64,000 nt of DNA from Protoeuglena noctilucae (lineage: Eukaryota; Chlorophyta; Pedinophyceae; Marsupiomonadales; Marsupiomonadaceae), in NCBI GenBank assembly GCA_958009085.1, contig OY253674.1:1-64000 (forward strand), given 5' to 3'. Positions 1,643 through 53,355 of this stretch are shown here, one piece after another. The number at the start of each line of letters is the position of its first letter. The first letter of the stretch is position 1. A program made the position numbers and the translations under genes. The notes below the pieces were generated by a model, which saw nothing but the letters and a program-made list of their open reading frames with translations, was not told the DNA's origin and ran no database searches.

Positions 1643-4600
1643 CGCACCACGTCGCCCGGGCTGCGCGTTGTGACGCTCAACGTCCGCGGCCTGGGCGACG
1701 GAACCTCCTCCAAGACTCACTTGATCCGCAGGTCCCTGGCCCGCAAGCGGGCGGACATCGCCGTCCTCACGGAGGTTCAGGGCCGCGACGCTGCCAAGCT
1801 TTCCGACGCCTTCTCGTCCTACAAGAGCTTCTGGAACCTCGGCGCCCACGCGGGCGTGGGTCTCCTCTTCCTCAAGAACGGCTCTGCGGCGAATCCCGTC
1901 GCCGTGCCGCCCAGGGAGCCCACCGCCCACGATGACCAGCTGGCCGCCTTGTCTGGCCGCGCTCTGCGCGCCAATTTCGCTTGGAATGGCCTGCCGCTGA
2001 GCCTGATCGGTGTATATGCTCCTGCTTCTGCCTCTGTCGGCGACACGCAGCGCTTCGCGGCGGGGATCCGCCGCTTCCTCCTCCCTGCCAAGCTCGGTGC
2101 CCGCCAACTCCTCCTCGCAGGCGATTTCAACACGACGACGGGCCTGCCGGACGAGCGCCTGTCCAAGAGCTACAAGAAGGACCTCCAGCGCCACGAGGCG
2201 TGGGTCCACCACGTCCTCGGCCCCGCGGGCCTCGAGGACGTCCACCTCAAGATCTTCCCGGCCAGGCCGGCCGCCTTCACCTGGTTTGGTCCCCCCGTGG
2301 CTGGCTCTGTTGCTGCTGCGCGCATTGACCGTGTGCATGCCAGCGCGCCCCTGCTCGCCAAGACGCACCCCGTGGTGTGCCACGTGGCATCCGGGGTCCC
2401 CCGCCTCGACCACCTGGCTGTGGTCCTCACCCTCACGGCGGGGGACCCTGAGCGCGCCCGATCGCGGCGCCGGCCGTACCCTGTGGCTCAAGCGCGCCCT
2501 GCCTTCCCGCTCACCGCGGCTGATGGCTCCCCTTCTGCCCCCGTGGTCACGCTGCGAGCCACTGCCGCGTCCCTCCGCCCCCTCTTCATGCGAGACCCCA
2601 TCCACGCTGGGCGCACCCTGGCCGCTAAAACCCGCTCCCTCTCCGCCGCCCACCGCAGGGAAGAGAACCGTGCTGTCGCTGAGGCCCAGGAAGCCATGAA
2701 GACGGCGCAGGCGCGCCTGGATGCGAGCCCCACGGGCAGCAACGCCGACGCGGTGGTCCAGGCCTCCGCTGTCCTGGCTGCTGCCCACGCCTCCCGGTTG
2801 CAGGCGGAACAGCTGCAGCAGCGCCACGCGGCTCGCCTGGAGGGGGAGCGCCCCAGCCGCATGATGACGGAGCGCATATCGGGCCCCCGAAAGCCCGCCG
2901 AATCCATCGTGGTGCTCCGTTCCCCGCAGGGCAAGACGCTCCGAGGTCGCGAGGCCAAGGAGTTCATGCGGACGCAGTGGGCCGGCCTCTACAAGGCCGT
3001 GCCCCGCGACCCTGCATTGGTGGCAAAGTTCCTTTCTGAGTCGCAGGGTGCCCCCGCCCAGCTCCCTGCCTCAGTCATCACCGCGCTCACGGCCCCTGTC
3101 CTGCCCGCAGAGGCCCGTGAGGCGATTATGGGCCTCCCGGCCCACAGCGTAGGCGGGCTTGATGGTGTCCCCCCCTCGCTCCTGCGTGCAGTCGCGGATG
3201 AGGCGGCGCTTGTCGTGGCTGATGTTGCCAACCGTCTTCTCGAGGGCCACCCTGTTCCCGCTGGGTTCTCGGACGCAGCCATCCGGCTGCTGCATAAGGG
3301 GGGGTCCAGAGCTGACTGGACCAACTACCGACCCATCGCCCTCCTCACCTCCCTCCGCAGGGCGGTGGCCAAGGTCTTTGGCAATCGCCTCCTCCGCAAG
3401 GAGGGGGACGATGCCAGCGTCATGGAGCGCCTGGTCCACGGGGACCAGGCGGCCTCCGTCCCGGGCCGCGATATCATTGCTAATATCGCCACGCTGCAGC
3501 TCCTTGACGAGACCCTGACCCTCGAGAACCGTCCCGCCCACGCAGTGTTCCTCGACATCAAGAAGGCCTTCGATTCATTGGACCATGAGTACCTCCAAGC
3601 CGTCCTCACCCATGCGGGCCTGCCCGCCCCCTTCGTGGGGGCGGCGATGGCCCTCCAGGTGGAGTCGAAGGCTGTACTTGCCTTCGAGAGCGGCTGCTCC
3701 CGGCCCTTTTCTATAGAGCGTGGGGTGAAACAAGGATGCCCCTTAAGTCCCCTCCTGTTCGTCGTTGCCATAGAGCCGCTGGCTTGTCGCCTTCGGTCCC
3801 TCGCCGCATCCGAGCCGCGGGCGCTCGGTGTTTCTCTTCCCCCGGGGTCGTTCGGCAGCCTTCCCCCGCAGGATCTGGCATCGCGCTTCTTCGCGGATGA
3901 CGCAGCTGCCCTGACCGCAGACCTGCCCGCAGCATGGGAAGCGCTGTCGGCGACCCTGGAGGACTTTGCCGCGGCCTCTGGCCTCGAGGTCAATGCAGCC
4001 AAGACGGCAGTCTACCGGCTTGGCAGGGGCGATCACGCCTCATTGGAGGCAGCAGCGGTGGCACGGGGCTGCCGCTGGTCCATGCCCACGGGGTTGGGCG
4101 TGGGCGTGCGTTACCTGGGTGCCCACACCCGCGATGCCCTGCACCAGGCCTGGACACGCACGCAGGGCGTGATGATCCAGCGCGGCACCGCCATCGCAGG
4201 GTTGCATCTGTCCATCCAGGGGAGGGCGGGGGCGGCCAGTGCCTATGTGGCAAGCACGGCGAGTTATCTACTCGAGACGTCCCCCGCCCCCGCCTCTATG
4301 GACCAAGAGGCGGAGAAGCTTGTCAACACCCTGGTGCAGGGCAACCGCGCGGCTGGCTCCCTGTGGCGTCGCACGGCTGACTGCATGGTCTTTGGCCCGC
4401 GCGCTGAGGGTGGGCTGGGGGCGACCCGGCCCACCGTGCATGTCCCAGCGCGCCGCATGCGCACTTTGGCAAAGATTCTCACGGGCGCGCCGGGCTTTGG
4501 CCCGGCTCGCCACGTGCTGGACCGGGCCTTGACGGTCCTGGGCGGCCCTGGCGTGGTATGGCTTGCCCGGGACTCCAGGTTGCCCAGCTCTGCGGGTGCT

Positions 4601-7090
4601 GCCTTGGCTGCTCGCGTCCCTGGTCCCTCCTACCTTGGGGCGCTTTTGGCGGCCCCTGCCGCGCTCGGCTCCCTTGTGGCCCTCCCCCCGGCTCGCTCCC
4701 CTGTCCCTGAGCCCCAGCCTGCTGCCCAGTTGCCTTCCCTGGAGATCCCATTCTCCCCCCTTACCGACGCAGGCTCCTCGGACTTGCTGGTCGACGCTGC
4801 CACTGGGCTGCCTCTCGCTGATGGCTCGTTCCCGCCGCAGGCTCGGAAGATGGCCAAGGTTCGCCTGGGGTGTGTGGGTCACCTCCTTCGTGTGCGAGCC
4901 GCGGCCGCAGGGCTCAAGATGGCCTGGGACTCCCCGGGAGCCGTGGCCTCGGAGGTGCTGGAGGCGTCGTGGTGCGGGCGGCTGTGGGGCACGCGCTGGG
5001 AGCGGCTGCTGCACCTTCGCTTGGGCGACACGACGTCGGCCAAGGACCCCGTCAAAAGGGTAATAATCCAGGTTTGCAAGGCGCTTGAGGGGCTGGGCGT
5101 TGTGGGCGCGCCTGTGCCTCCCCGTGCCAATGCCAGCCGTGTGGTGCTTGAGGGCGTGGCTGAGCAGCTCGTGGGTATCCTGGTTGCGTGGGACCCTTGG
5201 CAGGGCCTGGTTCTGTCCCCTGCGGCCTGCGGCTCCCTCCCTGCTCACCTCCGCTCCCTTGCCGCAGGCCAGGTCCCCTCCCCCGCAGACCTGGCGAGGG
5301 CGGAGCACACACTGGCGGCTTACTGCGCGCAGCAGGACTCTCAACTCCTCCCCCGTCCTTCCCGCCCCCAGGCTGCGCCGGTCGCTGTGCACTCCGCCCC
5401 CCGCCTGGCCCCCGAGCCCGCGTGGTGGGCGGAGCTCAACCTGCCCCGTGTCACCCCCTCCACGCAGTGGGCCCTCGAGCCTCATCGGCGCCCCCACGAA
5501 GTGCCCGTCCCCCTTCCGCTCCAGCAGTACACGGTTCGACATGCGGTGGGGGCGGCCTTCGACCGGGCCTCCATCACCTCGCGGCTTGCCCGCAAGGTGG
5601 AACAGTGGTCCCGGGCCGGGGCGCTCGGGGAGGCCCAGGACGGGCCAGACGGGGTCACGGCGGCGGGCATGCATGCCGCTCTCAAGACCATCAACGCTCT
5701 CCCCCTGTCTCCGCAGATGCACGAGGCGCTGTGGCTGACGCTGGCCGACGCGCGTGCGACCGCATCGCACTGCTACTGGCTCGACCTCACCACGTGCCCC
5801 CTCCTCCGCAGGGATGGCGAGCAGTGCTCCCACGACGACACGGTCGCCCACGCCTTCTGGGCCTGTGACAGGGCCCAGGAGGTGTGGGAGACGGTCAAGG
5901 CGGCCGCGCGGGCCCCGGCCCTCTCGGCGCGGGCGGTGTTCCACCTGGCCCCCCCTCCCTCCAGCCGTTTCACGCAGTACTCGTGGGCGGTCACCGTGGG
6001 CGCGGCTTTCAAGCTCATCTGGAGGCGCCGCCAAGAGCTCCGGGAGAACTGGCGCTCCCCGTCGACGCCCGCAGGCCTCTATGCCCAGCTTGGCGCCATC
6101 GTGGCAGCCGAGGTCCAAGACACTCTGGCTGTCACTGGGGCAGGGCGCCTTGCTGCTCTGCTGGGGAAGCGGGGCGACAGGCTCGTCCTCGCCCACGCCA
6201 ATGGCCGCAGGTTCTCGTGGCGCGGCTTCCCGGCTGCCGAGTGAGCGGCCGGGAAGGTCCGCATTGCAGGTCCGCGTGGGAGGGCGTCCCAGGGGCAGTG
6301 CCAGCAGCTGCAGGTAAGACCCAGGTGAGGCCGCAACAGGTGGGGGCTCGCCAGCGTATTCCATGGCGCCATATGCATGCTTTGCTCTGTCCTGGCGCAG
6401 CTGTACACCTTCTGCTGGCGGGGGACGTGCTAGGCTGCCACGGCAAGGTGCGCCCCACCGGGTCTGCTAGATGGCACTCCTGTGATGGTGTGGGTAGCCT
6501 GCTCGCGCGTGCGCGGGACGTGGTGAGTCTGCACATGTTCTTTCGGTGCTTCTTGGACGTGCAGGAGTTCAAGGTCGCCGGTCCTCCAGGGCCCAAAGTC
6601 CGGGTTCGCTCTCTAGGGACAGTGGTTATTGCCCGTCGGTGCTCGTTCCGGGGTGCCCGCAAGGAAACCTCGGGCGGGCGCCAGCGGGCGGGAGCCTAGC
6701 AGAGTCGGGAGCAGTAGCCGAGGGTTTCACGTCATGTTCGGAGTGTTGCAAAGGCTGCGGCGTCCCCCTCGTGGGACAGAACGGGGGACCCAGGTCCCCG
6801 AGATCCGGTCCCCCCAGTCCCTTGGGCGCGCCACTCCCCTAGCACACGCGTTCAGGTGGCCTGATGACGCTTCCGCCCCCGGGCCGCTTTGCAAAGCTCC
6901 CTCGCACTCTCCGAGTGTGGATCCCTAGGGGCCAGTGGGGGGGTTCGCCCCCCTGTGCCCGGCACCCGAGGCGGGAAATGACGAGCTCGAGATCGTGGTC
7001 CCTCACGGGTCACGGTTGGTGTCCAGAGAAGTGAGAGGCACCCGCGTCTGGCACCAGGTGCTGACGTGTCGAGCTCCGATCCCGCCGCGG
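1643..7090 (+). mobile_element. Subtelomeric non-LTR (LINE-type) retrotransposon, near full length
   Basis: One large open frame encodes an apurinic-type endonuclease, a reverse transcriptase and a C-terminal zinc motif, the standard order for LINE elements. No LTRs are seen. A non-coding tail follows the stop at 6244; part of it (6400-6480) is recognisable downstream in the relic copy at 7700-7800, which supports it being the element's 3' untranslated region. The exact 3' end is uncertain; a T-rich run at 7093-7123 is the nearest discontinuity. Subtelomeric stacks of LINEs are known from Chlorella (Zepp), and this element fits that behaviour. Confidence 0.75.
1670..6244 (+). CDS. LINE polyprotein: endonuclease-reverse transcriptase
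   Basis: About 1,524 residues. The N-terminus is an endonuclease/exonuclease/phosphatase domain: TLNVRGLGD at the start, catalytic Glu in VLTEVQG, LLAGDFNTTTG near residue 147, DRVHAS and a C-terminal LDH. The reverse transcriptase follows (about residues 520-780) with DIKKAFD, KQGCPLSPLLF and the active-site box FADD (bases about 3891-3902). Near residues 1380-1410 a Cys/His cluster (CPLL...C...H...C) resembles the zf-RVT motif. The frame is open back to 1643 but has no ATG at the start; the first in-frame candidate is GTG at 1670. Either the start is non-AUG, or an upstream part has been lost. No frameshift or stop interrupts it, so the copy may be recent. Confidence 0.85.
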   Translation: MTLNVRGLGDGTSSKTHLIRRSLARKRADIAVLTEVQGRDAAKLSDAFSSYKSFWNLGAHAGVGLLFLKNGSAANPVAVPPREPTAHDDQLAALSGRALRANFAWNGLPLSLIGVYAPASASVGDTQRFAAGIRRFLLPAKLGARQLLLAGDFNTTTGLPDERLSKSYKKDLQRHEAWVHHVLGPAGLEDVHLKIFPARPAAFTWFGPPVAGSVAAARIDRVHASAPLLAKTHPVVCHVASGVPRLDHLAVVLTLTAGDPERARSRRRPYPVAQARPAFPLTAADGSPSAPVVTLRATAASLRPLFMRDPIHAGRTLAAKTRSLSAAHRREENRAVAEAQEAMKTAQARLDASPTGSNADAVVQASAVLAAAHASRLQAEQLQQRHAARLEGERPSRMMTERISGPRKPAESIVVLRSPQGKTLRGREAKEFMRTQWAGLYKAVPRDPALVAKFLSESQGAPAQLPASVITALTAPVLPAEAREAIMGLPAHSVGGLDGVPPSLLRAVADEAALVVADVANRLLEGHPVPAGFSDAAIRLLHKGGSRADWTNYRPIALLTSLRRAVAKVFGNRLLRKEGDDASVMERLVHGDQAASVPGRDIIANIATLQLLDETLTLENRPAHAVFLDIKKAFDSLDHEYLQAVLTHAGLPAPFVGAAMALQVESKAVLAFESGCSRPFSIERGVKQGCPLSPLLFVVAIEPLACRLRSLAASEPRALGVSLPPGSFGSLPPQDLASRFFADDAAALTADLPAAWEALSATLEDFAAASGLEVNAAKTAVYRLGRGDHASLEAAAVARGCRWSMPTGLGVGVRYLGAHTRDALHQAWTRTQGVMIQRGTAIAGLHLSIQGRAGAASAYVASTASYLLETSPAPASMDQEAEKLVNTLVQGNRAAGSLWRRTADCMVFGPRAEGGLGATRPTVHVPARRMRTLAKILTGAPGFGPARHVLDRALTVLGGPGVVWLARDSRLPSSAGAALAARVPGPSYLGALLAAPAALGSLVALPPARSPVPEPQPAAQLPSLEIPFSPLTDAGSSDLLVDAATGLPLADGSFPPQARKMAKVRLGCVGHLLRVRAAAAGLKMAWDSPGAVASEVLEASWCGRLWGTRWERLLHLRLGDTTSAKDPVKRVIIQVCKALEGLGVVGAPVPPRANASRVVLEGVAEQLVGILVAWDPWQGLVLSPAACGSLPAHLRSLAAGQVPSPADLARAEHTLAAYCAQQDSQLLPRPSRPQAAPVAVHSAPRLAPEPAWWAELNLPRVTPSTQWALEPHRRPHEVPVPLPLQQYTVRHAVGAAFDRASITSRLARKVEQWSRAGALGEAQDGPDGVTAAGMHAALKTINALPLSPQMHEALWLTLADARATASHCYWLDLTTCPLLRRDGEQCSHDDTVAHAFWACDRAQEVWETVKAAARAPALSARAVFHLAPPPSSRFTQYSWAVTVGAAFKLIWRRRQELRENWRSPSTPAGLYAQLGAIVAAEVQDTLAVTGAGRLAALLGKRGDRLVLAHANGRRFSWRGFPAAE

Positions 7091-37681: not shown

Positions 37682-40600
37682 ATGGACCACCCCGCCAGCA
37701 CGAGCCCTGCGGGTGAGCGCGCACGGTGTGCGGGGCGCTGGGAGCGTCTCGGCAGGGCTTGACGACGCGCGCCGAGACAGTCCTGCTTTTTTCATCGGCT
37801 CGTCGATGTGTGGGGTCGCGAGGCTCGGTCTGCGCACGCCGCTGCCCTGGGCATGTTGCGTGCCCATGTTCGCCCGCGCCGCGCGCTGATGGCATCGTTG
37901 ATGGGCTCTTTCGTTTGCAACATGCTCGTTTCCCCCCATTCGCAGCTTCGCGCCCCGTGGCGTCTCTGGAGGTCGTCCCTGAGCATGCGGAGCCGCAGTT
38001 CTCGGCCACGTGGGTCGACAACCCGGGCGCCCTGGCAACGGGGAGATCGGAGCAGGTGCGGGGCGCGCTCCGACGATTCACTACCTTTCGTCGCAAGCGT
38101 TGCGCCACCCGGCGGCTCCCGAGAGGCCTCCGCGTCGCGCTCCCTGCCTGCAGTTCCCTCACCCGCCTCCCTTCGCGGGCCTCCGCGCTCAGTTCGACCC
38201 CGCAACGTATGACTCGGAGCCCGACCTGCATTCGTCGCGCGGCGTGGGCCGCGGGGCGTCCGGGCGGGCCAGGCGGCGCGGCTCCCAGTCCCCGCAGTCG
38301 GACAAGGGTGCCCCGGCCTCCAGGCGAGCGCGGAGCAGCGCGCGCGGCACGGTTGCGATGCGACACGCGCTTGGCGGTATGCCAATCTCCGTTGCTTTGC
38401 TTCTTCTTGCCTTCACAGGCGCAGCATGGACCCCGTTACGCGCCCGCTGACGTCGTCTGCAGTCGAGTCCTCCGCCACCACACCGCCCCCGGAGGGGAGG
38501 CGCAGGCGGAGCACGTGAGATGCACGCTGACGAGTCTCTCTTGGTTGTCTCTCACTCATGCAGCGTCTTGTGTCCATGTGGCACGTAGTGCACCGTAACC
38601 ACGTCCCGTCTGCATGAGCGTGCCACATTGCAGGCACACCACTTCCCACGCCATCCACCCTCCCCCCCCCCCACCATCACTCCCAATGCCACCCCCCCCC
38701 CCTTGCAGTGACCAGCCCCTCCGCATCTCCCAGGGCGAGCACTCGGGCCTCTTCGCCCGCGCGGGCCCCTCCCTGCAGTCCCTGCGACCCCAGCTGCCAT
38801 CCAACACCGATGCGATGGACGACCTGCCGCCCTCCGCATCCGCCGCCGCCTCGCGGGGGGCGTCGGCCAAGAGGGTGAGTGATGTGCATGCATGGGGGGT
38901 GACTGTGACTGTGTCGAGCAAGTAAGCTGGACGCATGGATGTGGGGGGCGTCGGCCAAGATGGTGAGGGACAGAAGCATGCATGTGAAGTGACTGGGACT
39001 GTGGGTGTGCTGAGCAAGTGAGCCATGCGCATGCATGTGGGTTGCCCTGTGTCACTGCCCCATACTCCTCTACTCACCACTTGACACAGCGCACTACCGC
39101 AAAGCATTGTGACGCATAGCACTCACGTAGACCTCTCCCTCTCCCCCCCAGGAGCGCCGCCCCCGCGCGTCTCTGCAGCTGGGCCCCGTATTCGGATCCT
39201 CCGCCCCCCGCCCCGGCCAGTCACGCGCGGTGGTGATGCAAACGCAGAAGGGACCACGCACCACGTCGCGACAGGCGCCCTCCCTCACCTCCACCGCGCC
39301 GGGACTCTCCACCGCCACCAGCAGCGAGTGAGAGACGACGAGTGGGGTGTTATAATATGGGTCGTCTTTTTTGCTGTGGGTATCTGCGATTCACATGCGC
39401 ACCCGCTGTTGTGCAGCAAGCCACAGCCACCCCCTCACGCCTCTCGTTGTCGCCACCCCCTCGCCCCGCCCACTGTCATCCAGCACCCCATGTCACCTCC
39501 TCTCACCCCCTCCCACCCCCTCTTCCCTCCATCCACCCCCCACCCCCACCCTGCCCCCCAGGGCCGCGGCCGACGGCGAGCGCGCGTCCCCCCACCTCTC
39601 GGTGCTGGACCGCTACATGCATCAGCTGCAGATGCGGCAGCCCGTCAAGTGCCGGCTGCTCACCCCCAGCCCCCTCGTGGCCGTCGTGGGCATGCCCATG
39701 GAGCTGCACGTGAGGGTGGTGAACCCCGATCTTGACTTTCTGGTCAGGCCGCCTGAGGTGGACGACTTCGCGCTGTATGTCAGGTCGGGACCCGCCAAGA
39801 GCAAGGACTACCGACTGGTCGTGGAGCAGATCAGCGACAGGGACTTCCGGTGAGGCTGAGGGGGAGATGGGTGGTAGCAGGATCGGTGGGGCTGATGGTG
39901 ACATGACATCGACATCAGCATTGACAAGCATACCCTTTCTCTACTGTTCTCCATCGATGCCTGTCGATTTCAATGAATGCGCAGCGACTGTTTCATTACT
40001 CACTCCCGCCACACACGCACACACACACAACGCAGCCACACACCCATGCTACCCCACCATCACCCCTCCCAACCCACTTCCCCCCCCATCCCGCAGCCTT
40101 GTCTGGGGCACGTCCGTTTCTGGCAAGTACTCGCTGGCCATCACGTGCCAGCACCTGGGGGTGCAGGGCTCCCCCATCGAGGTCGACTGCCAGTACCCGG
40201 TCACCGTGGCGCGTCACTCGTGGATCGCATCCTTTAAAGATCTGAGGGCGGGGGTGGCGTCGTCGTTTCGGGTGGTCGCGTGCGACCAGGCGGGGAACCG
40301 GCGCACGAGGGGGGGGGAGGACTTCGAAGTGCGCGTCAGGTGAGATGGGGGGGGGGGTGAGAAGTTGGGTGTGTTTGGTTGGTTGCGCAGTTGTCAGACT
40401 GTCTTTTAGGTAATAAGAGAGAACCAGTTGCCGATTGTGCATGCCGCACTGTACCCGATCAAGACATACCCCACACCCCAAACACCCCAACCGCCCCACA
40501 CCATGCAACACCACATTACCCCCCAGTCCCCCCCCACATACACCACCCCACACCCCCCACACCCCCGCAAACTCCCCCCAGGGGCCCTGCCGCGTTAGAG

Positions 40601-43600
40601 CGTTGCATATTGGAGGACCTGGAGGACGGCCGCTACAGCAACTTCATGGTGGGGTGCGTGGCGGGATCGTATGAAGTGCACGTCACATTCGAAAATCAGC
40701 CATTGCGCAACAGCCCCGTGCCGTTCCGCATCATGCCCGCCGCTGCGTCCGCGGATCACTCGGCGGTGGCGTGCACGCGGTTCTTCACGCCCAAGCAACT
40801 GGCGGTGCTGGACCAGTGAGTGGGGAAGTGGGTGTGGGGGGAATGTGTGTGTAGTGTTAAGCATGCATGCATGTGTGCATGGGGGTGCTGGACCAGTGAG
40901 TGGGTGGATGGGGGGGGAGGGGGGTGGGGGGATGGGTGTGTGTGTGGGTGGTGGTGTGAATGGAGCAGTGGGGAGGTGGGAGGGGTGCGGGAACGTATGC
41001 ATGTCGTGCAATCACTCCGTGCACTTCTTACTGTTACTGTTTCACTACCTTGACGCGCACATTCACTCACTCGCTCCATTCTCATATCTCTTCCCAATGC
41101 AGGTTCTACACCACTACCTTTGACGTGGACATCTATTCATCGGAGGACGACGACTGCCGCGTGCTGCCCTCCGCCTTCAAGACCAACTTCGTGGACCGGG
41201 GGAGGGCGCTGGTGGGGGACGACGTGCACGTGGTGAGTGATGGGGTGCTGTGTGATGTGCATGCATGGGGTAATTGAGTGAGAGAGTGGGATGGGGTGAG
41301 GAAAGTGTTGCGGTGTGGCAGTGGCAGCGCTGTCGTTCTGTCGTGTCGCATTGCACCCTACCCCACCTCCCCTCACCCACCCTTCACCCCACCCTTCACC
41401 CCTCACCTCCACCCCACCCCCACCCCCCCAAACCCAGGTCCCGGCAAAGCAGAACCGCTCCCACACCAAGAAACTCGCCAAAGTAGCCCCAGTGCATGCG
41501 GAGGGCAGCCAGTGGCCGCGACGGGAGCTGCGACTGAGCGCATTGCTGCGCCCACGCAGCCACCAGCGCATCAGGGAGGGCAGCTTGATCGCAGCCGCGA
41601 GGACTGTGCTGGAGGAGGAGGGGGGGGTGGAGCAGCTGTCTGCGTGGGGCAGGTTGAGGCGACTGCGTGCGTTGGCGGCTGAGGGGGCGGCGGAGGGGAA
41701 AAGGCGAAAGGAAGAGAGGAAAAGGAAAAAAGAGGAGGGGGAGGGGGGGAAAGAGAAAGGGGGAGAGGGGGAGGGAGAGGGGGAGGGGGAGGGGGATGTG
41801 GGGGGTGGGGCGGTGGGGGGGAGGAGGGGGAGGGGGGAGCCGGGGGCGGTGAGGGGGGATGGGGTGGGGTGCATGGGGGTAGTGCGAGTAGTAGCAGCGG
41901 CAGTTTAAGTTGCGAGTGGCGAGTGATAGAGTAGCACCAATGGCAGTGGTGCGGGTTGCCGGCACACGCCTGGCCTTTGCATAGCATGCACGCCACACTC
42001 TCGCCTCTCCCTTCCCATGCTAGCATCACACTCACTTCCTCTCCCACCTCACACTCTCCCCATCCCACGCTACCATCGCCCTTGCCCCCCCCATACCAAC
42101 ACCCCGTCTCACTCTCACCTCACCCTCACCCCCCAACCCCAACCCCCCCCAGGCCCGCCGCCGCCGCCACGAGCAGCTGCGCCGTCAGCGCGAAGAGGAG
42201 GCGCGCAAATTCAGCAAGACAGTGCAGCTGACAGACGCACCCCCCGCGGCCATGGACCCGTGTGAAGTGTGGGGGCAGTGCGGGCGACCATTGACGTGGC
42301 GCGTGACGGGCAGGGACCGGTTTGGCAATGCGCTTGTGCACGGGGGGGACGCGGTGGGGGGGGAGGCGGTGTCGATGGAACGGCTGAGGGGGCTGCATGT
42401 GAGGGAGGCGCTGCATGTGCAGGTGAGAGATGAGAGAGTGGGGTGGTGTCGGTTGATTGTGCGTCTCCGTTGCCGCGCTCTCCACAGCACAGCGCTGTAC
42501 CCGCATGTTACATCACGACCTGTCATCCGCACATCGCTGCTCGCCACGCGCACGTCACTCCCCCCTCCACAGCACAACCACGACGGCACCTGGGACGTCT
42601 CGCTGCCCTGTCACCCCCACAACCACTACACAATCTTGTTATCAATCTTATCAACGACACTTACACATTTCCATCTCTAATAACCACCCCAGGACAACCA
42701 CGACGGCACCTGGGACGTCTCACTCCTCCCCCGCCGCGCCGCCACCTACGACCTCTCCCTGACCATCAACGGCCGCCCCGTGCCCCACCTCGCGTTCAAA
42801 GCACGAGTGGTCGCCGGCCACTCCGATCCCGCCGCCAGCTTCGTGGTGGGGAGGAACACGGTCCCCAGCACGTTCCCGGCCGGATCGCGCATCACGCTGA
42901 TGGTGATAGCAAGGGACAAGTTTCGAAACCCGCGGGAGAGGGGGGGCGAGGACTTTAACGTGAAAGTGGCTTTGATTGGAGAGGATGAGGACCGGAAGCA
43001 GCTGGATAAGCCGATCGATGGTTTTGAGAACGTGACGCGTGCGTTGGCCACGAGGCTCACGGCCGCCACCTTCCAGCACATTCAGGACGCGGCGGCGAGG
43101 CATGGGGGGGGGGAGGAAGGTGAGTGTATTAAGGGGGGGGGGTTGTGGCGGGTGGGGAGTGATGTGGTGGGTGGAAGGAAGGTGAGTGAGGGTGGAGGGG
43201 GATGGGGATCGATGGATGGGTGGGAGTGATGGGTGCGGGAGGGGATGTAGGGGTAATAGATGGGCGCAAATATAGATATACTAAGCACCTATGACAGTGC
43301 TGGCATAGATGCGAGCATAGAAGCGCCACACAGGGTCATGCCTCTCGCCTGCCCGTCAGCCTCACTTACACCCACACCAACCCACTCCCACACCCACCCC
43401 CGCACCCACACTCCCCTCTACCTCCCCAGCCCCCCCCCGCCCCCTCCCGCTCCCGCGTGAGCCTGGTGAAGGGCACAGACGCGACACGATCCCGCGCCAG
43501 TCTCGGCATGCCGGCCACGCGCCCCCTCACGCCCGACTCGGAGCCATCGGGCATGAGTGGGGGGAAGAGCCAGGTGAGTGTGGGTGTGCGAGGGAGATCG

Positions 43601-46600
43601 GTGGGGCGAATGAGCTTGGCAGTGTGCTCCCTCTCTATCACTTCTCACCCTCACTGCCACCCTCACTGCTATCCCCACTGCTACCCCCCCCCCTCACCCG
43701 CGCCCCCCACTCACCCCCCACACCCTCACCCTCATCCCCACCCCACATCTCCCTCCCAGACCTCCCAGCCCCCCCGCCGCCTTCCCAAGCTCCCCGCTGC
43801 TATCGATCAGCGATCCGACTGGTCAAGGCGCATGTTCGGCCGCGACGTCGCTCCCGGTTATGAGCAGTGCGTGGGGTGCGAGATCGAAGTGCCTGAGGGC
43901 AGCAAGGAGGGGGGGGGGGGACGGAGGAGGGGCTGGAGCACCTCAAGGCACAGAAGTTCCAGGTGAGAGAGATGGGGAAGTAATTGTGTTATTATATTCA
44001 TACTATTAAAAAAAAATACCATAGAGATGAGATAATTGCATATGACCATCTGCATGGGAGCACCCCACCCTTACTCTCATCCACATATCCCCATTCTTAT
44101 TTATTCTCATCAATTCTTATGTATCCCCAGGACGCCTTCACGAAAGGCCAGAACCTCCCCGGCGTGTCCACTCTCGTCACTGACCTGGGCAATGGTCTCT
44201 ACCAGGTCATCTTGCGCATCGTGAGGGCGGGGAGCTACGAGGCGAGGGTGTGCCTGGGGGACGCGCTGGTCAAGAACGGGGTGGTGAAATTCGAGGTGAG
44301 GGGAGTGGAGATGGAAGAGATGTGAGATTGACTATAGAGATGACACGGAGGAGACGAGATGGAGCTGATGTGGGGAGCGTGACTGGCTGATAAGGCCATC
44401 ACCACCGCCCACCCACCGCACCACTGCCACCCCTCTCCCCTCTCACACCCCAGCAAGTGCACAGATCATCAACACCACCATACGCTTCCCTCTCCCCTCT
44501 CTCCCAGGTCGTCCCGGGAGAGTGCGAGCCCAGCAAGTGCCATTCATGTAACACCCCCCTCTCTTATTGCTATCTCAGGTCGTCCCCGGCGAATGCGAGC
44601 CCAGCAAGTGCAAGAGCAGCGGGGTGGGCATCCGCCGGGCCGAGGCGGGCTTCAGTTCCGCCTTCTGGGTGTCCGTCCATGACAAGTTCGGCAACCAGCT
44701 GCCGCACAGCGCGCCGGAGGTCAAATGCACGCTGGAGGGGCCCGAGAAGATCGAGGCGGTGGTGATTCCGCATCAAGCGGGGCTCTATCGCGTGTCGTAT
44801 TGGGCGCGGCAGCCGGGGGACTACATGCTGAGAGTGACGTGCAATGGGGTGCTGGTGCTGGGCACTCCGAAGCTGCTGCTGGTGTCTCCCCAGCGCAAGC
44901 GCGTGGCGGCGACGATGGGGGAGGGGTTCCGCACCGCCACGTGCGGGCACCTGGCGACCTTCCGCATGGCGGCGCTGGATGTCACGGGTGAGGTATAACA
45001 AATGGGAGATGTGGATTCAGATGTTGGATGGGATGGTGATATTGGATAAGATGGCAGGTGATTGGAGGTGAGGGGTGGTCACCTGGCGACCTTCCGGATG
45101 GCAGCCTTGGATGTGACGGGTGAGTTAGATGGGGTATGGATTGATATGGATTTGGATATTGGATGTGATGGTGGGTGAGTTGAGGTGAGTGAGGGTCAGT
45201 CAGGGGAACGGCAGCAGCACTCGCTCTCACATTAAAGGACCATGCTTGCTCCCACCCCTCTCCACCATCCATCCATTCCACCCCTTTCACTCAACCCTCT
45301 CACCCCCCCAGGCGCCCGCAAGCAGGTGGGCGGCGACGTCTTCCGCGTGACGCTTCACATGGTGCCGGGCACGAGCGCATCCCTGCGACCGCTGCTGCAC
45401 CGATTGCGCAAATCGAGGCAGGCGGATCACCAAGCCAGGCAGCGATTGGGGGGTGGGGGTGGGAGGGGGGAGGAGGGGGGCAGGGAGGGGGAGGGGGAGG
45501 GGGCGAGGGGGGGGGTGACGGAGAGGGAGGGGATTGCGGGGGTGGTGGATGAGATGAGGGCGAGGAGGGTGAGTGGGGGATGGGGAGTGAGTGAGTGATA
45601 ATGAGTGATAATGAGTGACTGATGATGATGGATGGAGCCGGCATTGCTGCATGCGTGCTTGTGTCTGTCTGCATCAGCCCCGGTCGCCGCCCACTGCCAC
45701 CCACTCTCCGCATCTGCCTGCATGTCACCCTATCCATGATAGTTAAAGTACATCCAATTCATATCACCTCACAATTCCCTCTTGCTATCTCTCTCCCCTC
45801 AGGTCGTGGACGCCTTTCTCATGGCCAAGCAGGAGAGCGACAGCCGGAAGGAGGTGGGGCTCACGGCCTCGGAGAAGGAGCTGACAAAGCAAAAGGAGGA
45901 CTCCAAGGATTCGATCGGAGACCTGCCGGGGGACGGGGACGGGGACGGCGCGGTGCGCGAGAGCGCGGAGGAGGCGCGGCTGAGGGAGGAAGTAGAGGCG
46001 ATGGCGGGGATTGAGGCGGCGGTTTGCGACAACAATGACGGCACCTACACCGTCAGCTACGTGCCTGCCGTGGCCGGGCAGTACCGGGTCAGGGTGGAGG
46101 TGAGGGGGGTAGGGGGGGGTTGATGAGAGTGGCAGCGGGGGTGGAGGTGGATGATGTGGGGTGGGCTCAACACTCGTGCTTTCTCTCACATTCTCATATG
46201 CTGTTGGTGTTGATGCTGTCGATGTCAACTTGCAACACTCTCGTGCCCTCTCTCACATACAACAACACCCCCGCAGATGCTGTTGGTGTTGATGCTGTTG
46301 TTATTGATGGGTGTAACACTCGCACTCTCTCTCACACACACTCTCAGATGCTGCTGGGCCCCGATGCGTTGTTAGATCGCGAGAGAGAGGAGCAGGCGCG
46401 GAGAGTGCGGTGTCTGGAAGAGGGAGCGGCGTCGGTAATGGAGAGCCGGGGGGAGGAGGGGGGGCTGTCGTCACACTCATCGGGGAGCGTGGTGAGGGGG
46501 GGATGGGTGTGGGAGTGTGTGTGTGTGTGCGAGTGGTGATGGGGTGGGCGGAATGCGCTGCATGCTGTCGTGTGCAATCCACATGCACACTCCATGTGTT

Positions 46601-49600
46601 CTTATATGTATACTATGTAATAGTTTACACATATAGTCATATAGTCATCCACATCACCCCTGCCATCCCGCCCTCTCCCATCCCCAGAGCAAGGCGGGCG
46701 CCGGTCTCACCCACAGCCCCTCCGCATTGGGCGGCCAGTTCATCGACGTGACCCCTCTGTATATAAACACGGTCAACGCCCCGGTAGTGAGCTGCACGCA
46801 CGCCGAGCCCCACGGGGCTGCTTGCGTGGTGCTGGGCAACAATGCGCTGTCACGCGAGCTGGACCAGCTCATGCCGGACCCGGAGGCCACGGGGCTGGAG
46901 GTGAGTTGTGTGGGGGTATTTGAATCACATGGGGATGCTTGTATTGTCGTTTGCAGGAAGGGTTATGGAAAGAGATGCTGTGCTGTGCTGTGCTGTGCTG
47001 TGGTTTCCCACCCATGCAACCATCGCCCCTCTCCTCTCTTTCTCTCATTCATACACCCCCCCTCTCCTCTCTCTCTCTCACATCCAACCACCCCCCCTCT
47101 CCCATCTCTTTCACAGTACGAGGAAATCGTCAAGGGCCGCCTGCCCGACTGGGAGACGCTGATGGAAGAATGCGGGTTTGTAGAAGAAAGAGATGCAAAT
47201 GAGGAGAGGGGGAGGGCGGGGCAGGCGGCGAGAAGGGGGCCGCCGGTGCGGAGGAGGGGAAAGGTGAGGGGGGTTTGAATCTGTGAGGGATTTGAATGCT
47301 AGAGAGGGGGGAAGTGAGGGGGATTTGAGTGCTAAAGAGGTGGGGTGGTGGTGGCGGCGGTGGTTGCGACGGTGGTAGTGGTGGTGTGTGCAGAGTCAGA
47401 GCCTGCCGTAAGCGTGCATGCTATCTATCCCCAATCCTTCCATTACTCGCAGTCCCAGAGTTTGGAAGAGGAGGTGCTTTTGGAGGTGGAGGCGGGTGCG
47501 CAGGGCACGCTCACGCTCTTCGTGTGTGATCGGTATTTGAACATGGCGACAACTGGATCCGGGGAGCTGGTGTGCGACACGGCGTTGGTAAAAGATGCGA
47601 ATGGGGAGGCGGGTGTGGTGATGCGTCCCGAGGGGGCCCGGACGCTCGAGGGGCTGCAGGCGGTCATACGGCACAGCCCGCAGGTGAGAAGATAATGATA
47701 GTGGATGGGGTGAGAGTGAATGAGAGATGGGAAAGGGCAAGTCAACCACGGGCCTGGCAGCCATGCTCACAGCATCCCTCACAATCATTCACCCTCACCC
47801 ACCCTTACCCTCATCCATCCTCATTCCCCTCCCATTCAGTGCGACGGCACCTTCACCGTCAAGCTCAATTCAATGCATCCCTCACTCATTCACCCTCACC
47901 CCCTCCCTCTCACCCCTTCACAGGGCGACGGCACCTTCACCGTGAAACTGAAAGCCCACCAGGCGGGCCTCTACCGCCTCCGCACCCGCGTGGCCGGCAG
48001 CTTGTGGCGCAACCTGTCCTGCCGCGTGCGCGTGACGCCCGGTCCCATCGCGCCGTCCATGTGCGCCGTGTACGGGCCGGGGCTCAGGCACGCCTACGCG
48101 GGGGAGTTCGCCAAGTTCACCATCGAGGCCAGGTGAGGGTTTGGTCACAAATTGGAATGGCGGTGCGTGTGGCGATCCTTGTTGCTGACCTATTACATGG
48201 TCGCTTCTATCAGTGTGCTTGTATCCAACACAGCCAGTCGCACTCTATGATGTCTCACCCAATGCCTCCCATCACCTCCTCACCCCCCCCTCCCTTTCCC
48301 CCTTCCAAGGGACACCTACGGCAACCGTCTCTTGAAAGGGGGCGAGTCCTTCAGCGTGACTCTTACCCCCGACATGGACAAGGCAGCCACCAGGGCAGCG
48401 AGGGCGGGGGGTGCGGGATTTGAATAACGGGCTGTATGAGGCCACGTTTCAGTGCACGCGCACGGGGCCTTATGCGATTGCGGTCAGCTACGTGGGGGGG
48501 ACGGCGGGGAAGCCCAGGCTGCAGAGCATCGCGGCGGCGCAGGTGAGGGGGGTGGGGGGGTGGGTGTGGGTGGGATGAGAGGGAGGTGATGGTGGATGGG
48601 TGTGTTGCGACGGTCGCGACTGTCGGCACGCAATGGGCTTATATGCACACCATCCATCACCCACTCATTCCCACTCATTCGCTCCCATTTCTCCATCTTT
48701 CTCAGATCACCGTGGATGCCGGCCGCGCGTCCGGCGCCAGCTGCGTGGCCCGCGGCCCCGGCCTCCTCCGGGCCGGCAGCGGCGTGCCAGCGATCGTGGC
48801 CGTGCTCATTCAGGACGACCTGGGCAATCCCAAGAGCGTGGACGACCCGCACAGGGCCGCCAGCACCGTGCACGGGAGGGGGCTGCACGCCAAGATCGAG
48901 AGGTGGGGGTGGGGGTGGGGGGGATGCGTGTGTGGGGGTGGGATAAGATGGGTAGGGGTGGGATGGGATGCGTGGGGTTGGGGGATGTGGACACTATGTG
49001 GCACTCTGACACTGCTGTATCTCTCTTCGCCCATCCTGTTTCTCCATCCCTCTCACATACACCCACCCTGTCACCCTCCCTGCACCCACCCACTCTGGTC
49101 ACCCATCCACTCTCTCTCACACACACCCTCTCTCTCACTCACACAGTTGCGACGACGACCCCCCCTGCCAGGGCATGTGCACCGTCACCCAGGCGTCATT
49201 GCGCAAGGAGCTGCCCAGCGGGGATGTCCTGGAGAAGTACCTGCCGGGGCTGTACTACGTCATATACAGGCGAGAGTTGATTGTAATTATAATTGTAGTA
49301 ATAGTAACACTAGTGGTCTAGTGGTATATGCGATGTCCTGGAGAAGTACCTGCCGGGGCTGTCATATACAGGCGAGGGATGGGGTGGTGGATATTGAGTA
49401 ACAGTAGTAGTAATGGCAATGGAGTATGCGAGGCCGCAGCTGTCAATCAATAGCAAAGACTGAGCTGCACAAGCACCCAATCACTCACTCACTCCCTCCC
49501 TCACCCCCTCCCTCACTCACGCACTTACCCCCACGCACCCTCAACCCCACACCCCCCTTCCCCATCCCCCCAGGGCCCCCCGCCCCGGCACCTTCTCTCT

Positions 49601-52600
49601 GAGCATCCAATTAGACGAGGAGCACATCAGCGGCAGCCCCTTTCAAACCCCCGTGGCTCGATTAGACGTCGACCAATCGCACGGCGACCTATCGGCGCAA
49701 TTGGGCTTCTCGTCAGAACTGGTGTTTGCGTGGGGGAGGGACACGAGCGGCGCGGTGCTGCGTGATCCGAGAGAAGACCAGGACATATACGGCTTCAGCT
49801 CTCTGATGGCAATGATGGATAGGGAAGCGGTCAAGGCGCAGGTGAGGGGGGGGTGCATGGGTTGGTGATATCAGCATGTGTTAGTATGTGAATTGATGTG
49901 TTGGTATGTGATATTGATCATCCAGCTCTCTCATGGCATTGATGGACAGGGAAGGGGTCAAGGCGCAGGTGAGGGGGGAATGGGATGCGGGATGGGACGC
50001 AATGGCTTGTTAAAACACCGCGGATGCGAGGGAGGCAGTTGATACCCATCCCAATCGTCTTAATTCCTGTCAATCAACCAATCCATCCCGGTATCCCTTA
50101 TGACTGCCATCCGCAGAGGGCCGCAGATGCGAGGGAGGCAGTTGATACCCATCCAACTAATGTCAATCAATGCAAATAGTCAATTATCTATATCTCCCAT
50201 CCTCGTCTCTCTCCGCAGAGGGCCGCGGATGCCAGGGAGGCAGCACGGGCGTCGATGGGGGCCAAGGGGGCAGGGGCATCCAAGGTGCTGATGCTGGGGA
50301 ACTTCCAAATCAAACTGGCAGAGATGGGGAAGGAGGGTGGCGGCGGAGGTGGCAGTGGGGGTGGCAGTGGGGGTGCGGATGCGGGTGCGGGTGCGGGTGT
50401 GGGTGGCAATGCGGGTGGTGGCAGCACAGGTGGCAAGGGTGCAACAGTGGGAAAGCATTTGCAGGCATTGGGCGCCGCGAAGCTGAGCCGGTGGCAGCGC
50501 GCGGGAGAACGTGCTTTGGAGCGCGAGCGTGAGGTGACGCAGGTGCAGATCACGCAAGAGGTGTCGCGCGTGATGCTCAAGCCACGCATGCTGACGAAAC
50601 AAGAGAAGTCGAAACGACTGGATAAGGATCTGGATTACCAGGCGCGGCGTCACGTGGCGGTGGTGGCGATGCACGCGAGCAGAGCGGCGGAGGCGATGGG
50701 GGCGGGGGCGGGGGCGGTGGCGGGGCTGGTGGGGGACAGGGCGAAATACGAGGCGCTGGAGGTGAGGGGGTGTGGGGGTTATATGTGACAGTGATCGTGA
50801 TAACTATATGTGATGGATAGCATTGGTAGTGTTGGTGGGCGACAGGGCGAAATACGAGGCGTTGAAGGTGAGGGGACATGTGAATATGTTTGCGTGGCTG
50901 TGTGGCGACCGCTGGCTCTGCATCAACAGCGCACCGCTGTGCCTGAGCTCAGCAACAGGGCGTCGTGGGCCGTCACAGGCGCACACATGGGTACCTGTCT
51001 TCTCTTTGACCCTCCTTTTCCAAACCAACACAACGGACTGACATCTCACCAAACCATCTTATCAATCCCCATTCCCCCATCCCCCCCGGTCCGCGTTGTC
51101 ACCCTACATTGACTCCTCATCTCAATCCCCCTTATCACCCGCAGTCCGCGTTGTCGTCCCGCCCCGAGCCCCGCGTGGTTCGCGAGGACCCCACCACTGC
51201 GGAATTGCTGCCGTGGAGCGACGCCACGCTGACATTCAAATCCCAAACACAGGGGGTGGGGGTGGGGGCGGCGATGGGGTACACGCGGGCCGCGGGGCTG
51301 CAAGTGCTGGCGGAGGAGAGGACCAGGTGAGGGGTGGGGTGGTGATCAATGTGATTGATGTGATTGGGTGAATGGGTGATATTGTAGATGGTGGTCAGGT
51401 GTTGGTGGAGGGGAGGACCAGGTGAGGGGGGTGGGGTGGTGGTGATCGATTGCAGTGGGGGGTAGATGCTATGGTCAGGTGCTGCTCTCACCCTCACCCT
51501 CACCCCCACTCTCACTCCCACTCTCACCACCACCACCCCTATCACTCTTACTATCACCCCCCCCCCCCCCCCCCCCCCCCCCATCACAACCCCAGGCGCC
51601 ACCTTCGCGAGGAGATGCGTCGCGCGGCGGACCCCACGGCCGCGTCATCTGACGTTTCGGAATCCGAGGGGGCGGAGGCAGAGGCGTCTCTGCTGCCACC
51701 CGCGCTGCGCCACATGTACCGACTAAAGCTGCGGGCGGGGAGGGGGGGCGTGGCGGGGAGGGAGGCGGAGGTGGGGGAAGAGGAGGTGAGGGGGGGGGGG
51801 GGGGGGGGTGGGGGTCTGGTTTGATAACTGTGGCAATTGACGACCTGAGACAACTGCCACAGCTAGCAGCTGTTAATGGCTGTGTGCACATGCTGTGGCA
51901 TGGCGTGTCTGTCATCATGTAGATGTAATCAGAGTGCATTGCATTGTTTCCCATCGCTCTTCGCAAACCGTACGTGCTCGCAGGGCAGCTCTGGCGGGAG
52001 TGGCGAGGGCGCCGCGTTGTTGACGGACAGCGAGGGGAGCCGGGCATCGGATCGTTCATCGCAATCGGAGGCGGGGCAGGGGGGCGCGGGGTCGGATGGG
52101 TCGTCGGGGGATGGGAGCGAGGGGAGCGGGGACGAGGGGGATCCCGACGCCAACCTGCTGCACGGGTGAGTGTTACATGAGTGTTATGTAAGTGTTATAC
52201 GAGTGGGGACAGCTGGGATGGCAGGTTGGTAGGATAGATGCTCACATTCTGCACGGGTGAGGGTGGGAGTGGGTGTACAGGGATGGCGTGATGGCACCCC
52301 CCATGGCTGTGTTGTTGTGATCTTCTTACATACCCCTCAGTCACTAACACCCCGCTGCCCACCCTTCCCCCCCCAGCCTTGGCATCACACACACGTCCCG
52401 CATCGTGCTGGGGAGCGAGGTGGCGCAGAAGCTGATGGGCCGGCTGGGGATGGAGGTGCCGCGATATTATGCAAGGACGCATGCGCCGAGGAGGGTGGGG
52501 GCGGAGGGGGAGCCTCCGAAGAGGACGGGGGGGTGCGACAAGCCGTGGGAAGAGGAGGAGAGGGTGAGGGTATGGAGAGGGGGTGTGGTGAAGAGGGGGT

Positions 52601-53355
52601 GTGAAGTGGGGGGAGGGGTGGTGATGGCATGTCATGGGAAGAGGAGGGGAGGGGAAGGTATGGAGAGGATGGTGGAGTGGAGGGTGTAGAGAGACGAGGC
52701 ATCGCGAAGAGCACGTCATATCTCATCGCTGCGTCATCTCTAGTCTTTCTCTCTCCCCGCAGCCCCTGACGCGCCGCGAGGAGCGGCTGCGGGTGCAGGA
52801 CGCGCTGTGGCGTGGACTGGGGGAGGGGCCGCCCGTCGAGGACGCGGTGCGGCAGGGGTCGACGTTCCTCAAGGTGTGAAACGCGATCACTGGCACGTGA
52901 CTGGAGTGGCCCGAACAGAGTGGTGGGGACAGGCACGTAACACACGATCATGCACATTCTGATTGCAGTGTGACGTGCTCTATCACTCCATCTCTTCCAC
53001 GCGTCTCTTTTCACATATGTCTATCTCCCTTTTCCTATATCCGCAGCAATTGGAGGACCAGATGTCGCAGGAGATATCGCTCGTGCCGCACGCGGGGCGC
53101 GAGGCGGCCAAGGGGGCAGGGCGCTACAGCAGGCCCAGCCGGCCCGGCCACCTGTCCTCCGCGGAGGGTGGCTTCGCGGGAGGGGGTGCCGGGGCGGGGC
53201 CGCGGGGGCCGCAGAGCCCGGGGAGGGGCCCAGCAAGGCTCAACACGCTGAGGCCCAGAGGGGCGGGGGCGGTCGCTGCAGGGCCTCCCTCGCCGGGGAG
53301 GGCCGCGGGGACCGCACCGTGGGGATCCGCGCCCGTGCCGCAGCCGCAGCGGTAG
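37682..53355 (+). CDS. Giant filamin-repeat protein, 35 exons
   Basis: Exons at 37682-37712, 37946, 38193, 38419, 38709, 39152, 39562, 40097, 40582, 41103, 41438, 42153, 42693, 43430, 43760, 44131, 44579, 45312, 45803, 46348, 46688, 47117, 47453, 47924, 48310, 48706, 49147, 49574, 50219, 51145, 51596, 51984, 52377, 52763 and 53047-53355; about 2,570 residues. At least nine filamin-type Ig repeats are seen through their end motif, e.g. LEDGRYSNFMVGCVAGSYEV, HDGTWDVSL, GNGLYQVILRIVRAGSYEA, AGLYRVSYWARQPGDYML, NDGTYTVSYVPAVAGQYRV, GDGTFTVKLKAHQAGLYRL and RPGTFSLSIQLDEEHISGSP. Linkers are acidic, Lys/Glu-rich or Gly-rich; both ends are Ser/Pro-rich and disordered. No calponin-homology actin-binding domain is visible. 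A structural or ciliary scaffold role is a guess. Two G-run frameshifts (43909-43920, 48406-48411) and many duplicated junctions are described separately. Confidence 0.82.
38858..38967 (+). repeat. Duplicated exon 5 end + donor (filamin-repeat gene)
   Basis: CGTCGGCCAAGA plus gtgag at 38861 recurs at 38949 (offset 88). Copy 2 has T for G just before the donor. Confidence 0.85.
40805..40904 (+). repeat. Duplicated exon 9 end + donor
   Basis: GTGCTGGACCAgtgagtggg at 40805 recurs identically at 40885 (offset 80), inside intron 9. Confidence 0.85.
42566..42725 (+). repeat. Duplicated acceptor + exon 13 start
   Basis: About 31 bp (acaaccacgacggcacctgg...) follow an acceptor-like cacag at 42573 and are repeated after the real acceptor at 42694 (offset 121) with one or two differences. 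Using the upstream copy would put in-frame residues HNHDGTWDVSLP and then intron sequence. Confidence 0.92.
43112..43190 (+). repeat. Duplicated exon 13 end + donor; downstream copy is the in-phase donor
   Basis: AGGAAGgtgagtg at 43114 recurs at 43176 (offset 62). The first donor leaves phase 1, which clashes with exon 14; the second leaves phase 0, which fits exon 14 read as PPPAPSRSRVSLVKG. Confidence 0.75.
43909..43920 (+). other. 12-G run with apparent frameshift in exon 15
   Basis: Upstream reads EIEVPEGSKE in frame; downstream the natural frame is EEGLEHLKAQKFQ ending in phase 0 before exon 16, but the sequence as given is shifted by one base. One extra G (or two fewer) would restore it. 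Sequencing or assembly error at the homopolymer is the simplest reading. Confidence 0.7.
44501..44612 (+). repeat. Duplicated acceptor + exon 17 start
   Basis: About 39 bp (cccaggtcgtccc...gagcccagcaagtgc) at 44501-44540 recur at about 44573-44612. Both copies start with a usable acceptor; the second continues into the long exon. Confidence 0.93.
44943..45124 (+). repeat. Duplicated exon 17 end + donor
   Basis: About 45 bp (cacctggcgaccttccg...acgggtgag) at 44948 recur at 45080 (offset 132) with four or five substitutions, including the gtgag donor. Confidence 0.93.
46165..46372 (+). repeat. Triplicated acceptor + exon 20 start
   Basis: The exon start ATGCTG... occurs at 46198, 46276 and 46348 (offsets 78 and 72), each preceded by a similar pyrimidine/acceptor segment containing AACACTC and CTCTCTCACA. 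Only the third copy continues into a long open exon (MLLGPDALLDRE). Confidence 0.9.
47836..47954 (+). repeat. Duplicated acceptor + exon 24 start
   Basis: GCGACGGCACCTTCACCGT follows an AG at 47841 and again at 47925 (offset 84). The second copy begins the open exon GDGTFTVKLKAHQ. Confidence 0.9.
48406..48411 (+). other. 6-G run with apparent frameshift in exon 25
   Basis: In frame up to ATRAARAG, then a stop at FE* as given; removing one G continues as VRDLNNGLYEATFQCTRTG, a typical filamin-repeat end. The exon length is also one base too long for the flanking phases. Confidence 0.72.
49219..49378 (+). repeat. Duplicated exon 27 end + GC donor
   Basis: GATGTCCTGGAGAAGTACCT...ACAGgcgag at 49223 recurs at 49332 (offset 109) with seven bases missing near its end. 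Both copies keep the GC-type donor gcgag. Confidence 0.92.
49793..49980 (+). repeat. Duplicated exon 28 end + donor
   Basis: About 55 bp from CAGCTCTCT through AAGGCGCAGgtgagggg at 49796 recur at 49923 (offset 127), with a few substitutions. Confidence 0.93.
50016..50252 (+). repeat. Triplicated exon 29 start
   Basis: A block reading GCGGATGCGAGGGAGGCAG occurs near 50020, 50123 and 50225 (offsets about 102). The last two are preceded by acceptor-like CCGCAGAGGGC; the first two share GTTGATACCCATCC afterwards. Only the third enters the long exon. Confidence 0.92.
50726..50876 (+). repeat. Duplicated exon 29 end + donor
   Basis: ACAGGGCGAAATACGAGGCG plus TGgaggtgagg at 50736 recurs at 50842 (offset 106). 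Confidence 0.93.
51311..51432 (+). repeat. Duplicated exon 30 end + donor
   Basis: GAGGACCAGgtgagg at 51319 recurs at 51413 (offset 94), with similar GTGCTGG/GTGTTGG sequence upstream and GGTGATC downstream in both. Confidence 0.88.
51557..51582 (+). repeat. 26-C run before an acceptor
   Basis: Uninterrupted C run 13 bp before the acceptor of exon 31 (51595). The next intron starts with gtga followed by a 19-G run (51790-51808). Confidence 0.9.

Follow-up and report, generated by a model that had tools for sequence, protein, structure and literature searches.

Local duplications tied to intron growth or gain have been described in a potato gene and in Daphnia, and here we compare those cases with a gene of the green alga Protoeuglena noctilucae. 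This gene, which encodes filamin repeats, lies in the first 64 kb (the window) of a 1.27-Mb contig (OY253674.1, or C7); the genome is 26.3 Mb in 26 contigs. Many of its introns contain a second, imperfect copy of an exon edge together with its splice site. These copies are a real trace of introns lengthening by local duplication, and the trace is present on two contigs.

It had been proposed that no described system matches this arrangement, but the accessible parts of several papers contain precedents. In the potato RdRp gene, an intron was gained by a tandem duplication that spans a junction, and the same gene has an 83 bp duplication in its first intron (PMC4974935). As in the acceptor-side copies described here, the potato unit spans the 3' end of an intron and the 5' end of an exon. 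However, the potato duplication created a new, spliced intron, while here we see longer introns only. In Daphnia pulex, internal direct repeats in neointrons were attributed to staggered double-strand breaks; direct repeats were found in 55/90 new introns and in 100/617 established ones (PMC4202315). According to the sections available, the Daphnia introns resemble those studied here in having direct repeats above chance, a proposed passive growth, and repeated terminal exon bases. In contrast, the exon-derived repeats of Daphnia are 4–12 bp and mark the birth of an intron, whereas the exon stubs here are mostly 15–58 bp, the introns are of uncertain age, and the copies are offset by ~50–130 bp.

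Two other bodies of work, as far as their accessible text goes, are also related. The model in which introns are gained by tandem duplication (Rogers 1989 and Hellsten 2011, as cited in PMC4974935) and the near-intron pairs of Drosophila (PMC2891723) likewise involve local tandem duplication with splice signals, but in the model the intron is made from an exonic AGGT repeat, whereas the events here seem to lengthen introns that already existed. In all domains of life, direct repeats (4–30 bp, mean 11.4) have been reported at or close to intron/exon borders and were read as insertion marks (PMC11782384); that work compares the 5' border with the 3' border, while here one border is repeated into the adjoining intron. 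The kind of event is known from Daphnia and potato, but in the literature searched, mostly titles and the starts of abstracts, we saw no report of such density, and apart from the papers cited here none appeared to describe the pattern.

We examined 332 kb of DNA in all: C7:1-264000, C3:1610001-1670000, and 8 kb of C21. Gene models come from a small hidden Markov gene finder trained on C7 itself, which predicted 70 genes with 368 introns; exon/intron boundaries throughout are predictions from sequence. Five predicted segments have profile matches, to the filamin, clathrin, RNB nuclease, phosphodiesterase, and bestrophin families. The 360 predicted C7 introns of at least 60 bases have a median length of 183 bases, and their donors are GT (303) or GC (57). 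Provided that the models hold, GC-AG introns make up a high share of the introns in C7:1-264000 (57/360).

The gene and its copies are as follows, with offsets between copies in bases:

38426..53352, + strand: filamin-repeat gene with 33 predicted exons and 32 introns (self-trained gene model, PF00630)
38855..39041, + strand: full tandem duplication on the donor side, offset 88 (copy A 38855-38945, copy B 38943-39041)
40800..40918, + strand: donor-side copy, offset 80 (A 40800-40842, B 40880-40918)
42564..42724, + strand: spaced copy on the acceptor side, offset 120 (decoy 42564-42604, true site 42684-42724)
43103..43253, + strand: donor-side duplication, offset 62, with an uncertain exon boundary
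44499..44611, + strand: acceptor-side copy, offset 71; all 3 differences in its exon part are synonymous
44945..45198, + strand: full tandem duplication on the donor side, offset 132; all 6 differences in its exon part are synonymous
46195..46357, + strand: acceptor-side array with clear copies at 46195 and 46274 and a weak third at 46345
47251..47328, + strand: low-complexity pair on the donor side, offset ~53, score 15.5
47772..47952, + strand: acceptor-side tandem duplication, offset 84 at the junction and 103 at the far end
49223..49376, + strand: spaced copy on the donor side, offset 109; 40/40 aligned exon bases match, and 7 bases are deleted
49796..49978, + strand: spaced copy on the donor side, offset 127, with a spacer unique to the site
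50018..50243, + strand: three-copy array on the acceptor side, offsets 103 and 102
50727..50875, + strand: spaced copy on the donor side, offset 106, with a spacer unique to the site
51089..51155, + strand: claimed acceptor pair, weak, 12 bases (score 12.0, p 0.012)
51304..51441, + strand: donor-side copy, offset 95
52158..52264, + strand: claimed donor pair, weak, 16 bases (score 13.5, p 0.002)
52527..52687, + strand: tandem duplication on the donor side, offset 88

PF00630 matches at 44594-44869 and 46001-46108, and also in a segment of the predicted protein. Other filamin-repeat matches in the genome (C9:36-42 kb and C18:21-31 kb) lie in very long uninterrupted frames of up to 3148 and 4608 residues, unlike the intron-rich gene of the window.

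We tested the listed pairs copy against copy, with up to 500 segments from other introns as the null. If each triplet is counted as two steps, there are 19 relations (11 donor and 8 acceptor), and 16 of them stand (scores of 15.5–46, p 0.002–0.008). The other three are weak: 52158/52249 (13.5, p 0.002), 51090/51145 (12.0, p 0.012), and 46276/46348 (10.5, p 0.03). The original prediction put copies in about 17 of 34 introns; the 16 relations lie in 14 introns, and our model has 32 introns in total. Two of the pairs are copies but with caveats. The pair 47258/47303 (score 15.5) is of low complexity, with an offset nearer 53 than 45, and at 43114/43176 the exon edge is uncertain, as the model ends the exon at 43094. 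The observation as a whole is partly confirmed: the copies are real, but we could not confirm that the unit always spans the junction or that the copies are confined to one gene. An ungapped scan of the gene found 12 complex local repeats, of which 11, by our own reading, involve a copy of an exon edge.

The copies had been described as a property of one gene, but we found a junction copy in 39/368 predicted introns across the 264 kb of C7 and on the second contig as well. On C3, with 111 predicted introns, 10 events pair part of an exon with a copy in the intron, at offsets of 59–100 and, in one case, 238. Junction copies look unusually common in the sampled stretch (about 1 intron in 9), and with a common filter the filamin gene is richer in them (9/32 introns vs. 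30/336 elsewhere, Fisher p 0.003). A filamin paralogue on C21, with 9 predicted introns, has no events at a score of at least 16, so not every intron-bearing gene shows duplication.

As a control across the sample, we compared 30-mers from exon edges with their own introns (352 introns, score of at least 16). There were 17 matches on the donor side and 16 on the acceptor side, vs. none on either side for the reverse complement, a shuffled intron, or the next intron, and one (donor) and none (acceptor) for the previous intron. With a threshold of 14, the 30-base edges matched their own intron in 29/358 cases for donors and 18/354 for acceptors, and matched other introns in just 1/3580 and 3/3540 comparisons. 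Exon bases 31–60 from the junction are rarely copied (2/343 upstream and 0/342 downstream, again with a score of at least 14). Similar copies within one intron or junction are far above the controls, as growth by local duplication predicts.

That the introns grew in this way is also borne out by their lengths. The median is 277 bases for introns with a junction copy and 173 for those without; subtracting the offset brings the former to 189. We then scanned C7 for events with gapped alignments (offsets of 40–250, score of at least 18, complex sequence only). Of 80 events, 45 pair a junction copy with an intron copy, 3 have both copies at junctions, 16 are interior to introns, 9 are within exons, and 7 are mixed or intergenic. 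Offsets have a median of 85 and a 5–95% range of 54–128 (57 events). At offsets of 251–1500, there are only 12 complex matches that involve an intron (score of at least 20, not classed for junctions).

The duplicated unit does not always span the junction, as had been claimed: of the 64 intron events whose geometry could be used, 48 cross it and 16 are interior. If the threshold must be met by the intronic part alone, then 14/30 events span a junction, and 15.5 are expected; we conclude that the junction is not a target. A mechanism aimed at splice sites, which had also been raised, is not supported, since placement fits random once geometry and detectability are allowed for, and junction spanning is largely a consequence of geometry. 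(Tiling introns with 30-mers gave 333/3408 matches vs. 22/3409 at a score of at least 14, but these contain short-period repeats, and we did not use them for the junction test.)

The 48 junction events leave different footprints: 20 are full tandem duplications, 19 are spaced, and 9 are intermediate. In the spaced class, the exon edge and a few intron bases are copied, and the sequence between the copies does not align. Mismatches in the exon part amount to 49/570 (8.6%) in the spaced class and 69/588 (11.7%) in the tandem class; because the spaced class is no more diverged there, its lost homology is not simply a matter of age. Direct repeats that flank non-homologous filler, a feature of Daphnia-type repair of staggered breaks, are present in these 19/48 events.

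We think that these introns probably bear the scars of local duplications of ~50–130 bp, with the placement of the unit tolerated and the exon stubs as by-products. What we observe directly is the duplicated units, their sizes, their placement, and the gain in length. Each local duplication would lengthen the intron, and a unit anywhere in the intron or at its edge would be tolerated provided that the outer splice site remained functional. Since the units are nearly as long as the introns (~180 bp), more than half of them would overlap an exon end by geometry and would carry an exon stub and a splice site into the intron. Exon ends would remain recognizable because the exon copy is constrained. 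As for the origin of the units, we infer fill-in repair of staggered double-strand breaks, with or without filler, or replication slippage; spaced direct repeats would be the footprint expected of staggered-break repair with filler.

As originally predicted, the duplications leave decoy splice sites with a stub of exon, and most of those we examined still score like true sites. After we excluded 9/49 pairs by eye as low complexity, the scores of 21/26 donor decoys (one borderline) and 10/14 acceptor decoys exceeded the 5th percentile for predicted true sites. Many introns therefore present the spliceosome with duplicated signals. The core is retained in 24/29 donors (GT or GC) and 13/18 acceptors (AG). 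Offsets modulo 3 (remainders 0/1/2) are 5/9/7 for acceptors and 11/16/9 for donors, so use of the decoys would mostly shift the frame. Zhuo and colleagues reportedly described, in 2007, alternatively spliced human introns derived from tandem arrays that carry several splice sites. We also considered a decoy followed by a new intron, as in potato, but a scan downstream of 14 acceptor decoys yielded no good donor: the best scored 2.7 and the rest at most 1.3, and the 5th percentile of true donors is 2.7. In the RNB-domain nuclease gene (C7:229759-229943), an acceptor-side copy has 1 mismatch in a 34-base stub (by eye) and is followed by GT. The gene finder called a micro-exon here; we take it as a decoy instead because the profile match breaks into two stretches at this point.

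If the intronic copy is free to change and the exon copy is free at synonymous sites only, then ~37–38% of the differences between them should be synonymous. We counted with a fixed complexity filter rather than by-eye selection; our first count by eye, 82:42 synonymous to non-synonymous after 9–10 low-complexity pairs were dropped, is biased because the dropped pairs were rich in non-synonymous changes. On the donor side, 48/100 mismatches are synonymous, vs. 37.4 expected at equal rates (P 0.02) or 47.2 with a doubled rate at exonic synonymous sites (P 0.48). Without the complexity filter, the donor side is at the null (57 synonymous of 140, or 57:83; P 0.30). The donor stubs thus appear to be near the decay of an unconstrained copy.

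Several results weigh against the view that the introns bear scars of duplications tolerated wherever they fell. The raw excess of spanning events is significant (48 vs. 37.1 of 64 expected from random placement of same-size units in same-length introns, P 0.0017); we ascribe it to detection, as junction events are easier to detect because one copy is exon. The ends of spaced copies seem to lie close to the splice site more often than expected for random breakpoints: in 17/19, by our own count, the homology in the exon is longer than in the intron, but the class is defined by at least 6 exon bases, which favors a longer exon part. The density of events in introns is ~19 times that of intergenic DNA (78 in 84 kb vs. 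5 in 100 kb), and exons have 13 in 140 kb. So the comparison with random positions, which was to decide the original prediction, gave a split result: intron interiors are like junctions, but intergenic DNA is not. Strictly neutral growth, which implies equal frequency between genes, does not agree with these counts. Also, where strand skew is below 0.2, introns still lead, with duplications in 6.2% of 418 windows vs. 0.2% of 1720 intergenic ones. Finally, 42/59 mismatches on the acceptor side are synonymous, vs. 22.5 expected; none of 20,000 simulations reach this number, and the excess is still significant if exonic synonymous sites evolve three times as fast (P 0.008). Overall, the original interpretation is partly supported.

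The difference between the donor and acceptor sides (48:52 vs. 42:17, Fisher p 0.005) was noticed after the fact. The acceptor ratio is 45:25 without the complexity filter, and an alternative filter (31 pairs) gives 31:26 for donors and 27:9 for acceptors. On C3 by itself the numbers are small (donors 1:5, acceptors 4:2). The proportion of synonymous differences, pS, is 0.22 for donors and 0.33 for acceptors. By eye, most differences among the intronic copies in the three-copy arrays at 214921 and 220898 fall at third codon positions, while the copies at 227709 do not have this bias. We find no account of these synonymous patterns satisfactory; the candidates are that the upstream acceptor is used, that diverged alleles underwent unequal exchange, or that synonymous change is faster in exons.

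If skewed, low-complexity introns caused slippage linked to replication or transcription, then duplication would be a property of introns, and breaks would have no special role. The mean absolute GC skew is 0.43 in introns, 0.22 in exons, and 0.17 between genes, and the introns of the filamin gene are G-rich in their 5' half and C-rich in their 3' half. Duplication coverage climbs with skew in introns and intergenic DNA alike, and windows with a skew of at least 0.6 are similarly covered (39% of 483 in introns, 45% of 22 between genes), so strand skew accounts for part of the contrast between introns and intergenic DNA. Short-period repeats (12–39 bp) on C7 also follow introns (62, vs. 4 intergenic and 22 in exons). 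However, those on C3 show no clear preference for introns (5, vs. 3 intergenic and 5 in exons), the enrichment in introns persists at low skew, and repeats with unrelated sequence between them are no obvious product of slippage; we consider this explanation rather unlikely. Alternatively, the stubs might be functional decoys, used or bound, and kept by selection for alternative or regulated splicing. The high scores of most decoys and the apparent coding constraint on acceptor stubs agree with this, but core retention is close to that expected from decay at the observed divergence (our own estimate), the offsets are mixed modulo 3, and donor stubs are near neutral decay, so selection for function is doubtful. 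Similarly doubtful is the narrower idea that the upstream duplicated acceptor is used in some transcripts, with its stub read as protein and constrained in amino acid sequence. If true, many introns would be long-lived and have two acceptors, and local duplication would have added a layer of alternative splicing across the genome. Alternatively, the copies may have come from unequal exchange, either of diverged alleles or with a hybrid partner; the exon edges would then have differed synonymously at the outset, and the introns would never have matched. This would account for both the synonymous divergence of the exon parts and the absence of intron homology in the spaced class. But it predicts the same pattern on both sides, a broad range of offsets rather than mostly 54–128, and a synonymous divergence of ~0.2–0.3 between alleles, so we think it very unlikely.

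Two other origins seem still more remote. Introners, which are mobile elements that form introns, would insert with a target-site duplication and leave direct repeats flanking an insert; in the parts of the papers available, they are present in 5% of surveyed species (PMC9860276), and the green alga Micromonas had a massive intron invasion (PMC3879977). Here the spacers do not appear to be shared among introns: three of the 19 spacers, searched genome-wide with simple repeats and very common words skipped, matched only themselves, and against the 332 kb sample 18 of the 19 had no non-self match and one had a weak one. Exon edges hardly ever match other introns (1/3580 and 3/3540), and repeat lengths vary. 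These results largely contradict introners, which we regard as extremely improbable, and we rejected an origin from mobile elements. Lastly, short tandem repeats are hard to assemble, which is all that speaks for an assembly artefact or for cDNA-derived insertions. We give practically no credence to either: the copies differ by substitutions, and events are rarer outside introns. Six introns were flagged for a copy across an exon-exon junction, and none was convincing on inspection, so we rejected a cDNA origin.

Elsewhere in the window, an open frame of 1533 residues (1643-6244, + strand) has endonuclease/exonuclease/phosphatase and reverse transcriptase domains and appears to be a LINE-type retrotransposon. 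A 41-bp tandem repeat, 98% identical, at the extreme start of the contig (1-235) is possibly subtelomeric, and three clustered tRNA genes (Thr, Met, Ser) lie at 454-828. Contig C26 (100,950 bases) has two identical genes, plus another member of their family, that we take from the translation to be psbA-like, which points to a photosynthetic eukaryote.

The lengthening of introns and the origin of spare splice sites are usually inferred from single cases. In a compact genome with about 1/10 of sampled introns showing duplication, the exon stub could serve as a built-in clock, with one copy constrained and the other free. Such a genome would allow the rate of intron growth, the footprints of repair routes, and the fate of duplicated splice sites to be measured together. 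The specificity for introns and the synonymous pattern on the acceptor side deserve planned testing.

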